From: Spirochaetota bacterium
GTDB taxonomy: Bacteria; Spirochaetota; Spirochaetia; Treponematales; UBA12059
Assembly: GCA_029560805.1 (NCBI GenBank)
Contig: JAKQKE010000008.1
Span: forward strand, 46,382-110,381
Length of the DNA: 64,000 nt
Reading direction: 5' to 3'
Position numbers and translations under genes: made by a program. Under the pieces are notes generated by a model. That model saw nothing but the letters and a program-made list of their open reading frames with translations, had not been told where the DNA came from and ran no database searches. Each line of letters opens with the position of its first letter. The first letter of the stretch is position 1. Of this stretch, positions 28,158-34,718 are shown piece after piece.

Positions 28158-29870
28158 TCAAGCCCCGTCGCGCGAGCGACGTAGCTCATTCAGCACAATG
28201 CCGGCACACCAATCCCGGGTGTCGGTCAAGAGCTCGTCGGGCCTCGCCTGGGTCTCGCCGGAAAGGCGCCCGAATACGGCCGCAGCCGGCAGCATCGTCG
28301 TCCATACGTCTTTCTCGTGCGGAGACAGCCCGTCGAGGTAGGCTGCGGCGTGACGGTATGGCGCTGGAAGAGCGACGATATCCGCGTGGTACGCTGACAG
28401 GAATTCGAGCGGCCTCTGGTACGGTCGACCCGCGGCGAAAACCCTGCCCGAGTCCCGGCCGCGAGGCGGTACGTTGCGCAAGGTCTCGGCGCGCACCCCG
28501 AAACCGCGCTCCCGCTCTATCCTGCACGAGGCGACGGCCGCTAGACGTTCCAGCCTCTCCTTGTACATGACCAGGGGCTTCGTAACGTAGCGGAAAGCGC
28601 CGTCATCGTCGTCCTCCCTCGAGATGCTCTGGTTGCGGTACAGAAACTCGGCGAAGAGCGACTCGGACGGCCGTAGCCTCGACTGCCGCACGTCGAAATA
28701 CGGATAGATGTAGGTGCCTCGCGCGTAGCTCTTACCGAAGGGATAGGAGAAGTCAGCCCCGAAGATCCTGACGGTCGACGCCCCGAGGTACTCGGCGAGC
28801 GATACGGCAGCGTGAGTCACGTTGCCGCCCGAGGTGTCGAGTACGGGGAAGGCGCGGTAGCGAGAGGCTATGTATCGTGACAATGGGTGACCGGAGGAGA
28901 AAAAATACGGCCGAACGGCCAGGCGCGACAGGGTGGGCGGCGAGGCCAGGTCGAGGAAGAGCGGCACATCCGGCGGCAGGCCGAGCGAGAAATGGTAATA
29001 GCTGATCTGCTGGCAATCGATGCTTATCACCGCGTCGGGCCGAATGCCCCGACCGAGCAAGGCGCGCAGGCTCGTGTCGGTGGCGATCAGAAACGCGTCC
29101 TTGGGCCTAAGGCGGATCTCCTCGGCGTATCGTTCGAGAGACGGGCCGGCCGCAGTAATATAGGCCGAGCGTATGGGCCCGACAGGCGGCGTCGGCGCGT
29201 TGGACAGCTCGAGGTTACGGACGATATTCGAGAACCAGCGCTTGCCGAAGAACGATTGAACCGAGTAGTCGTCTGATATGGCGTCTATGGATCGGCGTAT
29301 GGCATCGGCGGCCCTATGGAACGGCTCGGGCGACGCGTCTATCCTGCCGCGCAGGGGAACCGAGACGATGTCGCCGGTCACCGCTGGCACGTAACACCCG
29401 GCGATAACCTCGTTCAGTTCGGCCTCCTCCGGATCGACGAGGAGCCTGAGCCTTCGATCGCCGAGCACATGGGTTAGGTCGACGCGTTCAAGCACGGCGC
29501 GTAACGTGGTGGCCCCGTATTCGACGATCAGACCCCTGGTCACGAGGTCGGCCTCGAGCATGGCGGCGGCCTCATAGCCTGCCCCGAGCCCGAGGAAGAC
29601 ATAGAACGCCGCCTTGCTGTAGCTCGAGGCGAGTCGCCCGGCCTCTCGCACCGGGTCGAACCTGGAATGCATAAGGGCTTGGCGGGAGCCTAAGCCGACG
29701 AAGGGTACCGGATGCCCCGAACGGGAGGTTTGGACGCCAACGCGCGGATCAGATCGCGCCGAGCGTATCCTGTCAGCGCAGACTGGCCCGTGGCACGAGG
29801 CCACGGCCAGCATATTGCGCTCGAAGAGCTGCGCGTCGAGCGGCTCGTGAGCCAGGTTAGCCTCAGCCAT
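28158..29870 (-). CDS. DUF115/MptE-like, motility-associated factor (Maf)-type glycosyltransferase family protein
   Basis: AYITAAGPSLERYAEEIRLRPKDAFLIATDTSLRALLGRGIRPDAVISIDCQ; IFGADFSYPFGKSYARGTY. Confidence 0.82.
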   Translation of the reverse strand: MAEANLAHEPLDAQLFERNMLAVASCHGPVCADRIRSARSDPRVGVQTSRSGHPVPFVGLGSRQALMHSRFDPVREAGRLASSYSKAAFYVFLGLGAGYEAAAMLEADLVTRGLIVEYGATTLRAVLERVDLTHVLGDRRLRLLVDPEEAELNEVIAGCYVPAVTGDIVSVPLRGRIDASPEPFHRAADAIRRSIDAISDDYSVQSFFGKRWFSNIVRNLELSNAPTPPVGPIRSAYITAAGPSLERYAEEIRLRPKDAFLIATDTSLRALLGRGIRPDAVISIDCQQISYYHFSLGLPPDVPLFLDLASPPTLSRLAVRPYFFSSGHPLSRYIASRYRAFPVLDTSGGNVTHAAVSLAEYLGASTVRIFGADFSYPFGKSYARGTYIYPYFDVRQSRLRPSESLFAEFLYRNQSISREDDDDGAFRYVTKPLVMYKERLERLAAVASCRIERERGFGVRAETLRNVPPRGRDSGRVFAAGRPYQRPLEFLSAYHADIVALPAPYRHAAAYLDGLSPHEKDVWTTMLPAAAVFGRLSGETQARPDELLTDTRDWCAGIVLNELRRSRDGA

Positions 29871-31464
29871 CGCAGCCTCCGCGCATCGAAAAGAGGGCTT
29901 GCTCGGCCGCCGAGTGGACGGCGAGGAGTTCGCGTTCTGTCGCCTCGCCCCTGGCCATCGAGGCGACGAGGGGCGCGGTGGCCTCGGGAGCGAGGGCCCT
30001 GTATACCGTCATGGCATCGAACGGCATCGGAACCGACGAGGCCAGAGCCTCGGTTGCGCCTGCGAGCGAGGCTTCGAGCGACGACGATACGCGGTCGAGG
30101 TAGCCTTCACGCCGAATGGCCGCCGAGTCCAGACTCGAGTCGCGCGAGCCATCGTCGAGCGGTGTAACAACGGGCGGCTCACCCCTCGTCGGCGGAAGGT
30201 CGTCGAGCCTGGCAATGCGAGGCACCGGAGTCGGCACGGGGGAGTCGGAGAGCCTGAACGCCCTGGCGCTATCGCCTAGCGGCGGCCGAATCGACAAGGC
30301 GTAGGCGGAGAATGCGCGAGAGAGGCGCCAAGCGCCTACGGCCGCCTGATAGCCGTCGAACGTCCTGGAAGCGCCGGCCGACGTTACGGGCCTCGTTCTT
30401 GAAGCCAGCGCTAGGTCGAGCGAGTCGAAGGGGTAGGGCCTGCAATGGTCCTCATGCCCGAAGGCGGCCAGGTCGTAGCCGGCGAGGGTTACCGGACCTC
30501 CGGTACATGCGAGCGCGAGCGATAAGGCGGTGCCGGCGGCGCTACCGGACGCCGAACAGCGATGGTCTTCGAAACCTGCAGCCTCGACGGCCGCACGCTC
30601 GAACGGTAAGCCAGTATCGAGCGCTAGGATAGGGCATCGATAGAGGGCGTCCTCGGTGGCGAAGGCGCTCGGGGACAGCGCGATCGGGATTCCGAGTTCC
30701 GTGATGGTCCGAAGGTGCAGGGCGTTCCAGAAACCGGGATCGGTGGCTACGGCTAGGTCGGGCGTCAGGCCGGCGGCGACGAGCGCCGGAACGGCCGAGG
30801 CAAGGGCCCACAAGGCAATATCGTCGCGGCGACGGCTAAGCTCGGGAAGGAACCGCATAAGGCTCGGGCCGGCGCAGGCGATGACGATAGGGCCGTCGCC
30901 GTTGCGTATACGGACCTGTCTCCGGGCGGCGGCGGCGAAACGGGCCGCATTGCGTAGCCATCCGGCTGACCAGTACGCGCTCGTCGCGGCGTCGGAGCTG
31001 GCTGACTCGAGCGCGTCACGCAGGGCGAGCCTGATGCGCTCGCTCTGCGCGGTGAAGCGCCTGGTCACCGGCGTCCACTCGATGACCGACACGCCGCCAG
31101 CCATGCGGCCGTCCGCCAAGGATCGGGCCAGGACGGATTCGAGCGGCTCTGCCACGCCTGGGCGCCAGGTAATGGCGGGCTTGCCGAGCTCATGTGCATG
31201 GAAGAGGTCGCAGGGCTGAAGCGAGACTAATCGCGCCCTAGGGAGGAGTTCCGATACGGCCTCGTGGATATAGCCCATGCCGCCGCCAATGATGTAGACG
31301 ATGGCCGGGCGTTTCGAGCCGATACAGGCGCGAACGTGCCTGGCGGCCTCCCGCTCCGGGGCGTATCGGGAGTGGAACGAGGTTGGATCGGGCTCAGGGA
31401 ACGTCGGGCTCCCGATACGCGCCTCACAGCCCATCGATGAAGGAGCGGATCTTGGCTTCGGCAT
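29863..31464 (-). CDS. Second DUF115/MptE-like (Maf-type) protein
   Basis: VIACAGPSLMRFLPELSRRRDDIALWALASAVPALVAAGLTPDLAVATDPGFWN; GYDLAAFGHEDHCRPYPFDSLD. Confidence 0.8.
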   Translation of the reverse strand: MPKPRSAPSSMGCEARIGSPTFPEPDPTSFHSRYAPEREAARHVRACIGSKRPAIVYIIGGGMGYIHEAVSELLPRARLVSLQPCDLFHAHELGKPAITWRPGVAEPLESVLARSLADGRMAGGVSVIEWTPVTRRFTAQSERIRLALRDALESASSDAATSAYWSAGWLRNAARFAAAARRQVRIRNGDGPIVIACAGPSLMRFLPELSRRRDDIALWALASAVPALVAAGLTPDLAVATDPGFWNALHLRTITELGIPIALSPSAFATEDALYRCPILALDTGLPFERAAVEAAGFEDHRCSASGSAAGTALSLALACTGGPVTLAGYDLAAFGHEDHCRPYPFDSLDLALASRTRPVTSAGASRTFDGYQAAVGAWRLSRAFSAYALSIRPPLGDSARAFRLSDSPVPTPVPRIARLDDLPPTRGEPPVVTPLDDGSRDSSLDSAAIRREGYLDRVSSSLEASLAGATEALASSVPMPFDAMTVYRALAPEATAPLVASMARGEATERELLAVHSAAEQALFSMRGGCDG

Positions 31465-32280
31465 CGGGGCCAGATAGCTTCAACGATGTATATGGTCCGG
31501 TAGCCAACGGCCAAGAAGGCTCTACGGCCAGCGCGCGCCTCAGCGTACGAGCGACCTGGGCCGCGACCAGCTCGGCGTCACCGGCGTTATGCGTATAAAA
31601 GGCCATTAGGCACGAGCCGTCCGCCAGGCCGAAGGCTCGCCCGCTCGTACCGAGTATCGACGATACGCAGGCCATCAGCTCTTCATTCAGGCTAGAAGGC
31701 GACGATAGGGGGCAGCGCCGAACGGCGGCGCTTGATAGCTCCAGGGTCCTCAGCATGGCCAGCGACACGAAGGAGAACTGTTTGGCACTCCCTATCCTGA
31801 TGAGCTCCTCGGCTGACGCGGGCTCGACCTGATGCATGGCTATCCTGAACGTAGCGGCGGGCGACGTCCGTCCTATGCGCCTGAGGGTATTTTGTACCGA
31901 GTCGGATAGAGATGTCGAGGAGGGCGTTATAATGAACTGGTCGCCCTCAAGGCGTAGCGTCTCGACGGGCTCGCCACCTACTTTGAGGGAGGGTAGCGAT
32001 TCTGCGGACATGGAGTCGGGTAGATCGGCGCCGTACGCGGCGAAGCGGACTACAGACTCGACCCGCTTCGAGTAATAACCGACCCAAGGATAGCCCGCGG
32101 CGGCTAAGGCCTCGATCGCTAGCCGGAGACCTAGATGACGGTTATCTATGCCCCCGAGGAGCCTATCGATAGACTCGTGATATACCGCGGAGACTTTTTT
32201 TTTTGGCTTATGGCCAGAAGGCCATCATTCCTAGCGGCGAGCGCGTCTGAACGGCTCGCCGCCTTCTCTAAAAGTCCCAT
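31424..32280 (-). CDS. Hypothetical protein of the DUF115 operon; 285-aa frame split at an A10 tract (0-frame product 44 aa, stop at 32146; full product after -1 shift)
   Basis: Minus strand ATG at 32280: MGLLEKAASRSDALAARNDGLLAISQKKK then, after -1 shift, VSAVYHESIDRLLGGIDNRHLGLRLAIEALAAAGYPWVGYYSKRVESVVRFAAYGADLPDS-MSAESLPSL... continuous with the 31424..32011 track ORF. Confidence 0.75.
32159..32176 (-). promoter_or_regulatory. Candidate RNA hairpin downstream of the slippery site: GAGUCUA-UCGA-UAGGCUC
   Basis: 7-bp stem (one U-G) with tetraloop, 17 nt 3' of the AAG codon in the minus-strand mRNA. Confidence 0.4.
32195..32204 (-). repeat. Homopolymer A10 (T10 on +) containing in-frame A_AAA_AAG slippery heptamer
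   Basis: AGC CAA AAA AAA AAG TCT read on the minus strand. Confidence 0.95.
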
Positions 32281-34718
32281 CACAGCAACCCCAGATCGTC
32301 GAATAGCCGTTTGTACGTATCGTAATACTCGCTCGAGGCGAACTCCTCGATTTTCTCTTCCGGCAACGAGGCGAGTAGCTGGTCAAGATAGACCAGCACC
32401 GACTTAACGTCGCGCTTCAGCTTGTCGGGCGTCGAATCGGCCGTGGCTTCCGCTTCAGCTCTGGAGTGCGTTGTGGGAGCCGCCTCGGCGCGCGGCGGAG
32501 CCTTGGTGACAGGCGCTTCATCGACGGCTAGCTCGGGCTCGAACCTGGCGAGCGGCTCATCCCCGACGATCTCCTCGACTGCACTATCGGCTTCGTCGGC
32601 GAGCGGCTCATCCGCGACGATCTCCTCGACTGCACTCTCGGCTTCGTCGGCGAGCGTATCGTCATCGATTAGCTCGAGCTCCTCGGCTACCTCATCCTGT
32701 TCCAGGCCTACGAATAGGGAATCGTCGAGACTCGTGGCTATTTCATCCGGATGGTAGGACAGGTCGGATGCCTGGGGCGTTTCGAGCGGAGCCTCCACGA
32801 CGAGCTCATCGACGGAATCGTCGCCGAAATCATCGAGCGTGAGTTCCTCGAGGACGTCATCGCTTGGTAGCAGCTCCTCGACCGGCTCGGTCGACTTCTC
32901 GGCATGGAGCTCGAGCCCGCCTAGCTCTTCAGGCTCGATGACCTCCTCGAGGTCCATTGCGTCCTCTACCTCGTCGATGGGTTCGTCGAACGAGTCCACC
33001 GTCGAGACGACAGGTTCGTCTCCAGCGTCTATGTCGAGTACCAGCTCCGATTCATCGTCGGCGGCCTCTATGACCGGCAGGTCCTCGTCGTCCCCTTCGA
33101 AGGCGGGAGCGAGGTCGATATCGAGATCAGTCTCGCTCGGTTCGACGAGAGGAACGTCCTCTATGGGCATGCCCTCGAGCTCCTGGAAATCCCGAGCCTC
33201 GGTATCGTCGTCCAGGAAGCTCGTGTCCTCGGGCCCGGGGATGATCGGCGTAACTCCATCGATGGGCTCGACGGCTTCGATCCCCTCGCCCGAAAGGTCA
33301 GCGTCCGCGAAGCTCGTAGCTTCCTCCGCTAGCTCGATGGTTTCGATCCCGGGCTCCGAGGCCTCGGCGTAGACGCCGTCCTCAGGCAATAGCTCGACGT
33401 CGTCGGGTATCGACAGTTCGGGAGCCTCATCCTCGGGTTCCTCCGAAACGGTCTCCTCGGTGAAGTCGGCCGTATTGAGGATGTTGTCAAGCTCGTCGCC
33501 GGTCAAGGCTATCGTGTCGTCATCCTCGTCGTCGAAGAAGCCACCGGATGCATCGGCTAGCTCATCCTCGACGCCTTCCGCGGAGGCCGCTTCACCGACG
33601 GAGGCTCCAGCCGCTTTGATGCTGCTCAGCTGGTCGCGAAGGCTCACGAGCTCCTGCTTAATCGATGACAGTTCGCTAGCGATCTGCCTGAGCAGGTCGG
33701 AGGACGGAGCCGAGGAGGCGAGGTCGTCCGATACGGCCTGGATGTCGTCGAAGCCAGATTCGCCGGAACCGATGGATACGCTCTCTATCTCGAGGTCGGG
33801 GATGATCCCGATGCTCGCGTCGTCGTCGGAATCTATGAAGGAGTCGAGCGATATGCCCTCGGAATCGTCGGTCGGCTCGCTCGCGATCGGTGCCTCGCGA
33901 ACGGCTACGGGAGCGGGCTTGGGCTTGGGTTCGTCGAGGCCTATGGAATCGAGATCTATCGATTCGAATTCCGAGCTCGAGCCCAGGATGTCGTCTTCGG
34001 AGGAGAAGGTATCGGTCGCCTCCTCCGATTCCGCCGATGGGATGGTGTCGTCGAACTGAAGGTCGATATCGAGGGATTCGAACTCCTCGTCAGCTTCGGC
34101 CGGATCGGCTACAGCTGGGCTGGCCGAAGCTGGGCTGGCCGCGAAGCGCTCTAGGTCGTCGAGCGCGGGCCCGGTCGGGCCGTCGTCATCGAGGCCGAAG
34201 TCCTCGATACTGATCTCAGTGGTCTCGAATGCATCGACCGAGGCCGATCGTCGCTCGGCCGGAGGTTCCGCCGCTGGCGCCTCCGTCTTTACCTCGTCGA
34301 AATCGAGATCGTCAAGGGACATGTCTATGACCGTGCTCTCCACGACCCCGTCGTCGAGCTCGTCGCCCGTATCGGGGACGTCCGCCTCGGAGATGCCGTC
34401 CTCGTCGTCGAGCGGGGCGAGGGATTCGAAATCGTCGAAGTCGATGCTCTCGGCCTCACCTTCGAGAGGTGTCTCGGCCGGGGTCTCGACGGCCGTATCC
34501 AGATTCGGTAGGTCGAACGAATCGAGCAGTTCCTCTTCCTCGGCGAGCAGGACCGCATCCGAGCCTTCGGCCGAAGTCGAGGCTACCGATCCATCGGCAA
34601 CGAGCGTGTCGTCGGTCAGGTCTTTCGGCTCCGCCTTGACCCAGACGCCGTATCGTTCAAGATCGTGCTCGGGGGTAGGAATGGGATCTGGCTTCCCTTG
34701 CTGGGTCTTATTCTGCAT
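32280..34718 (-). CDS. Large highly acidic low-complexity protein with conserved-looking C-terminal tail
   Basis: 812 aa, Asp/Glu-rich; C-terminus VKSVLVYLDQLLASLPEEKIEEFASSEYYDTYKRLFDDLGLL; TGATG overlap with downstream ORF. Confidence 0.85.
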   Translation of the reverse strand: MQNKTQQGKPDPIPTPEHDLERYGVWVKAEPKDLTDDTLVADGSVASTSAEGSDAVLLAEEEELLDSFDLPNLDTAVETPAETPLEGEAESIDFDDFESLAPLDDEDGISEADVPDTGDELDDGVVESTVIDMSLDDLDFDEVKTEAPAAEPPAERRSASVDAFETTEISIEDFGLDDDGPTGPALDDLERFAASPASASPAVADPAEADEEFESLDIDLQFDDTIPSAESEEATDTFSSEDDILGSSSEFESIDLDSIGLDEPKPKPAPVAVREAPIASEPTDDSEGISLDSFIDSDDDASIGIIPDLEIESVSIGSGESGFDDIQAVSDDLASSAPSSDLLRQIASELSSIKQELVSLRDQLSSIKAAGASVGEAASAEGVEDELADASGGFFDDEDDDTIALTGDELDNILNTADFTEETVSEEPEDEAPELSIPDDVELLPEDGVYAEASEPGIETIELAEEATSFADADLSGEGIEAVEPIDGVTPIIPGPEDTSFLDDDTEARDFQELEGMPIEDVPLVEPSETDLDIDLAPAFEGDDEDLPVIEAADDESELVLDIDAGDEPVVSTVDSFDEPIDEVEDAMDLEEVIEPEELGGLELHAEKSTEPVEELLPSDDVLEELTLDDFGDDSVDELVVEAPLETPQASDLSYHPDEIATSLDDSLFVGLEQDEVAEELELIDDDTLADEAESAVEEIVADEPLADEADSAVEEIVGDEPLARFEPELAVDEAPVTKAPPRAEAAPTTHSRAEAEATADSTPDKLKRDVKSVLVYLDQLLASLPEEKIEEFASSEYYDTYKRLFDDLGLL
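32547..32657 (-). repeat. 51-bp tandem repeat (17 aa) in the acidic protein
   Basis: ADEAESAVEEIVADEPL / ADEADSAVEEIVGDEPL; two near-identical DNA copies plus a partial one. Confidence 0.85.

Follow-up and report, generated by a model that had tools for sequence, protein, structure and literature searches.

A conserved A10 tract that splits a spirochaete gene is probably a programmed transcriptional slippage site

Does an A10 tract that splits a gene near its 5′ end mark an error or a decaying gene, or is it a site at which the gene is recoded? The window, i.e., the whole 64,000-nt stretch of spirochaete DNA that was analyzed, carries such a gene (Table 1). The initial annotation had proposed that a 44-aa frame is split at the A10 tract and is continued in the -1 frame to a product of 285 aa, and both the coordinates and the translation were reproduced. 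The 0-frame is translated as MGLLEKAASRSDALAARNDGLLAISQKKKSPRYITSLSIGSSGA followed by the stop codon, and from the tract the -1 frame extends through 257 codons to its own stop. For the window gene, a tract of 8 or 11 A residues was computed to be in frame and a tract of 10 out of frame. The tract had been described as conspicuous, and indeed no second A10 was found on either strand of the 3.33-Mb genome. When the A9 tracts elsewhere in this genome were considered as further recoding sites, they proved not to lie in comparable split genes.

Table 1. Features of the split gene and of its neighbours in the window
Feature	Coordinates	Strand	Description
0-frame ORF of the frameshift gene	32146..32280	(-)	N-terminal peptide, 44 aa; ATG 32280-32278, stop 32148-32146; MGLLEKAAS...GLLAISQKKK...; two GLL-type motifs
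A10 slippery tract	32195..32204	(-)	Frame junction; CAA AAA AAA AAG in the 0-frame
-1-frame (trans-frame) coding part	31424..32203	(-)	Predicted GAF-like and degenerate GGDEF-like domains; stop 31426-31424
195-aa ORF, ORF-caller output	31424..32011	(-)	ATG 32011; under-call
Upstream acidic protein, 812 aa	32280..34718	(-)	C-terminus SVLxYLDQLLASLPEEKIEEFASSEYYDTYKRLFDDLGLL, very conserved
MptE-like/DUF115 gene 1	29863..31464	(-)	PF01973, 1.7e-14, 54.4 bits (gathering 34.6)
MptE-like/DUF115 gene 2	28158..29870	(-)	PF01973, 1.5e-25, 90.4 bits (gathering 34.6); overlaps gene 1

The split at the A10 tract explains why an ORF caller would give just the 195-aa fragment. When G000 and G003 were compared, the dN/dS of the 0-frame before the tract was 0.075/0.415 (about 0.18), and that of the -1 frame over the 60 codons from the tract to the ATG of the 195-aa ORF was 0.222/0.637 (about 0.35); the two other frames of the same 60 codons gave 0.291/0.383 and 0.362/0.172. 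These substitution patterns show purifying selection on the -1 frame that begins at the tract itself. It follows from the values of the 60 intervening codons that this frame is translated from the tract on and that ATG 32011 is not the real start; since those codons are conserved in the -1 frame, the 195-aa ORF is considered an under-call.

A search of 59 relatives yielded orthologues in 10 genomes, and those with the 5′ end present had A9 or A10 at the same position, beyond which the coding frame is displaced. For a wider survey the very conserved C-terminus of the upstream acidic gene was used as the anchor, together with 80 named loci. The anchor was recovered from 352 of 394 genomes in the order and from 226 of 395 in the class; the gene directly behind it usually starts with MGLL.KA or a close variant, and the N-terminal motif of the 0-frame peptide is conserved among the orthologues. 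As a result, 63 distinct tract-bearing alleles were collected from 20 families of the class, with a tract of A9 to A13 at the same place (exactly A10 in 53 of them): 50 need a -1 shift (one extra A), two need +1, and 11 are in frame. The 52 split alleles, which belong to 17 families, comprise 46 A10, three A9, one A11 and two A12 tracts, all with the homopolymer at the frame junction, and two additional -1 A10 alleles outside the 63 (L123 and L127) were read by eye. No disrupted orthologue without a run of at least nine A residues was observed among the loci that could be scored. Thus, the alignment of homologues that had been suggested as a check bears out a real frameshift, conserved in orthologues, by which the 44-aa frame is joined to the frame behind it, with the A run kept at one place.

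This conservation goes well beyond chance, because 60 other orthologues keep a run of A9-A13 even when the identity to the window protein after the tract falls to 7-20%. The 65 tract-bearing loci were picked for having the tract, so that only the count of runs elsewhere in them is unbiased, and this count amounted to just five other A/T runs of at least 9 in 242 kb. Nor does AAA AAA AAA reflect a codon habit, since nearby Lys codons are 59 AAG and 11 AAA. In the window's own family (f1), 19 of the 20 readable genomes are split (17 A10 and two A9) and neither A8 nor A11 was found; the exception, G012, has an in-frame A10 in a different codon phase. In Treponema, Breznakiella and several other families the gene is uninterrupted and has no long A run. 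On a gene tree of 123 proteins, too saturated for dating origins, the presence or absence of the tract changed at least 13 times, and four of the changes are forced by well supported branches. Taken together, the A10 tract is an old slippery site that has been maintained on purpose, rather than a sequencing error or the mark of a broken gene, and it probably yields two proteins from the one gene.

Some loci depart from this arrangement. At L012/L032, near the upstream stop, the end of the upstream gene runs on into the frameshift gene in one G003 haplotype (EYYGILRHV...), with an indel near a contig end. In the complete genome of Brucepastera parasyntrophica (L078:5159-6300) the orthologue is disrupted twice, by A9 near the start (-1) and apparently by T8 further on, which reflects either double slippage, decay or homopolymer errors. 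A shorter MGLL protein of 112-147 aa without the tract, which probably lacks the GAF part, was observed in some termite-gut-type spirochaete MAGs (L026, L028, L033, L044, L061 and L076).

The best explanation is that the A10 tract is a programmed transcriptional slippage site, which we regard as probable on the basis of sequence comparison. RNA polymerase would stutter on the tract and add A residues to a fraction of the transcripts, so that those with 11 (or 8) A residues would be in frame and would direct the synthesis of the 285-aa GAF/degenerate-GGDEF protein, and unslipped transcripts would give the N-terminal peptide only. This short product (15-79 aa across the alleles) retains in the window both GLL-type motifs, without the domains. 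The site itself would set the ratio of the short to the full-length product. In the 0-frame of the 50 alleles of the -1 class the run is in phase 1 in 36 cases, in phase 0 in seven and in phase 2 in seven; since the phase varies, it is the pure run length, and not a phased heptamer, that is conserved. No conserved downstream structure was found over 54 alleles (mean z -0.56; 9% below -2), and no consistent SD-like element, which was absent from most of the 54. A long pure run without phase or stimulators is how sites of transcriptional slippage have been characterized (PMC1088944, PMC3711429, PMC4256274). The slippage of RNA polymerase that the initial annotation had listed as an alternative fits these data, whereas the dnaX-like heptamer and hairpin that it described are not the conserved part.

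The direction of the shift is also consistent with slippage by the polymerase. When Escherichia coli RNA polymerase slips, insertions are reported to be favoured about threefold relative to deletions (PMC6260861), and mRNAs with 10-15 A residues arise from the A11 site of tssM (PMC4256274); because of this insertion bias, the finding that 50 of the 52 split alleles need one more A fits slippage. The two A9 (+1) alleles (L006 and L008) could not be served by -1 ribosomal shifting, and loss of one A would serve them, so that nothing but slippage by the polymerase or an unusual -2 shift would account for them. The in-frame A10 alleles retain the run and their off-frames mostly stop early, which suggests that two products may be the constant. 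Counting against slippage, 11 tract-bearing alleles are in frame, so that the split is not obligatory, and the uniform -1 direction is equally predicted by ribosomal shifting.

The main rival, programmed -1 ribosomal frameshifting or sliding on A_AAA_AAG or A_AAA_AAA, would produce the full-length protein from the unedited A10 mRNA, and we consider it rather unlikely, but by far the closest competitor. A_AAA_AAG is the best -1 ribosomal site of E. coli; it does occur in the 0-frame of the window gene, as had been claimed, and in 28 of the 36 phase-1 alleles (28 of the 50 -1 alleles), the other 22 having A_AAA_AAA or another last base. In addition, every A10 allele contains an in-phase A_AAA_AAA, 50 of the 52 split alleles have the -1 direction at any tract length (A9-A12), and sliding of ribosomes along repeated AAA codons has been reported (PMC4363877). 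However, a heptamer would suffice for such a shift, whereas run lengths of 9-12 are maintained in every phase, neither a stem-loop nor an SD-like stimulator is conserved alongside (the predicted structure in the 60 nt after the window tract is not unusual, z about -1.1, and is not conserved), and the A9 (+1) alleles are left unserved. Phase variation, in which replication slippage alters the tract so that the gene is turned on (A8/A11) in some members of the population and off in others, is improbable. A homopolymer at the frame junction, a difference of A9 versus A10 between close relatives (G004 and G022) and lengths of 9-13 across the class would be in keeping with it, but the lengths are strongly biased to A10, close relatives are almost never in frame (one of 20 in the family f1, and that one by the other codon phase), random length change would equalize the 50:2 ratio of -1 to +1 alleles, and both haplotypes of the MAG G003, which differ at 10 of 430 positions, hold A10. 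Variable tract length as the main role, also raised previously, was consequently set aside.

That the two frames encode separate proteins, the 0-frame peptide ending and ribosomes re-initiating in the downstream frame, is very improbable. That the 0-frame ends soon after the tract (median 8.5 codons) would be compatible with re-initiation, but the distance between the tract and the first start in the downstream frame ranges from 2 to 119 codons, and the position of this start is not conserved; the window gene has it at codon 61 (ATG), preceded by the 60 codons conserved in the -1 frame, and 11 tract-bearing orthologues as well as many tract-less ones are one continuous protein. Finally, an indel introduced by sequencing or assembly, or a pseudogene in decay, might be suspected, as most genomes surveyed, that of the window included, are MAGs, and the individual A9 calls in G004 and G022 could be errors. 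As a general explanation it is refuted, since independently assembled genomes of 17 families share the split, with 52 distinct alleles among them, and purifying selection acts before as well as after the tract, and the sequencing indel considered at the outset is thereby discarded.

We then turn to the protein that transcriptional slippage would restore. The AlphaFold2 model of the part after the tract (pLDDT 90.9) has a GAF-like domain and, behind it, a GGDEF-type fold that is ferredoxin-like, and among the fold matches in the PDB, DosP, diguanylate cyclases, PelD and GAF proteins were on top, with modest partial TM-scores; hence, it is predicted to be a GAF plus a degenerate GGDEF-like domain. 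By eye, ADGSCL occupies about the site of the GGDEF signature, and neither a GGDEF nor an RxxD motif was seen, so that cyclase activity is unlikely because the signature is not present. The Pfam search gave no match for the window protein, and Pfam GAF was matched only weakly by five of 61 relatives (best E about 1e-3 to 1e-4); no NCBIfam family was found for any member, and a PDB sequence search returned only marginal matches. Naming the protein by Pfam or NCBIfam was rejected, as no model covers it.

The gene was placed by the initial annotation in an operon with DUF115 genes, and two neighbours with PF01973 (MptE-like, formerly DUF115) were found. Upstream, its ATG shares TGATG with the stop of the acidic gene, and downstream its stop is overlapped by the likely start of MptE-like gene 1 (ATG 31434). 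The acidic protein has no Pfam match, although hardly any of its 50 C-terminal residues varies across the class. The gene that follows overlaps the full-length stop or begins no more than 10 nt from it in 47 of 62 tract-bearing loci, mostly without an SD-like sequence, and it is MptE-like in the three loci tested (L058, L086 and L025). Given this overlap of start and stop, coupled translation of the next gene would depend on the slipped fraction and would probably be limited too. The flagellar or surface role suggested by the initial annotation is putative. A tentative extension is that of an ancestral, class-wide slippage valve, in which the conserved A10 itself, and not its frame, would meter both the GAF/GGDEF-like protein and the MptE-like envelope or flagellar modification genes via the overlapping start and stop codons. 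In this view, lineages may have alternated between slippage that restores the product and slippage that truncates it, two products being retained throughout.

To our knowledge, apart from dnaX and genes of mobile elements, conserved programmed slippage is known from few chromosomal genes, and the gene described here is a new case of a type of recoding already known. The tract is retained in about 20 families within a single class, also in GC-rich genomes that have almost no other A10, and the in-frame, out-of-frame and tract-less orthologues offer a natural series for asking whether selection acts on slippage or on frame. No description of the gene was found in the freely accessible main texts that were searched; that of PMC3711429 names no such spirochaete gene, and a GeneTack cluster for this gene may exist in its supplementary tables. 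The predicted order of the two domains, GAF and then degenerate GGDEF-like, is that of PelD-type proteins, which differ in that the identity is about 10-12%, the whole-chain TM-scores are modest and an extra N-terminus with GLL motifs is present here.

The textbook slippage gene is dnaX. In E. coli its -1 ribosomal frameshift takes place at A_AAA_AAG with an SD-like element and a hairpin. The window gene shares with it the heptamer in the 0-frame and the -1 direction, but has no SD-like element or conserved hairpin, and its run exceeds the length required and is not tied to one phase across the orthologues. The Thermus thermophilus dnaX and the A10 dnaX cluster, in which slippage is transcriptional (PMC1088944, PMC3711429), likewise have an A9/A10 homopolymer and two products from one gene. 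In the genomes surveyed here, the dnaX template is in frame and slippage truncates the product, whereas the template of this gene is usually out of frame and slippage would restore it. An in-frame A10 was observed in dnaX of the genera g8 (L125, L126 and L132) and g9 (L128, L134 and L141), where the off-frames stop after 1-6 codons in a tau/gamma-type arrangement, and in that of G008 (L135), near the 3′ end; in G014, G015 and G021 the only two A10 tracts per genome are those of this gene and of dnaX, and the window genome's own dnaX has no A10. An ftsK-like gene of G013 (L138) also carries an in-frame A10, with off-frames that stop within 2 codons. The tssM1 gene of Citrobacter rodentium, in which transcriptional slippage occurs at A11 (PMC4256274), is, like the gene described here, interrupted at a long A run; slippage adds A residues and restores the full-length protein, short and long forms coexist, and no ribosomal stimulators lie nearby, as is proposed here. 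The tssM1 site is located late, after about 807 codons, whereas here it lies near the 5′ end, so that the short form is small, and, unlike that of tssM1, the A run of this gene is conserved across a bacterial class.
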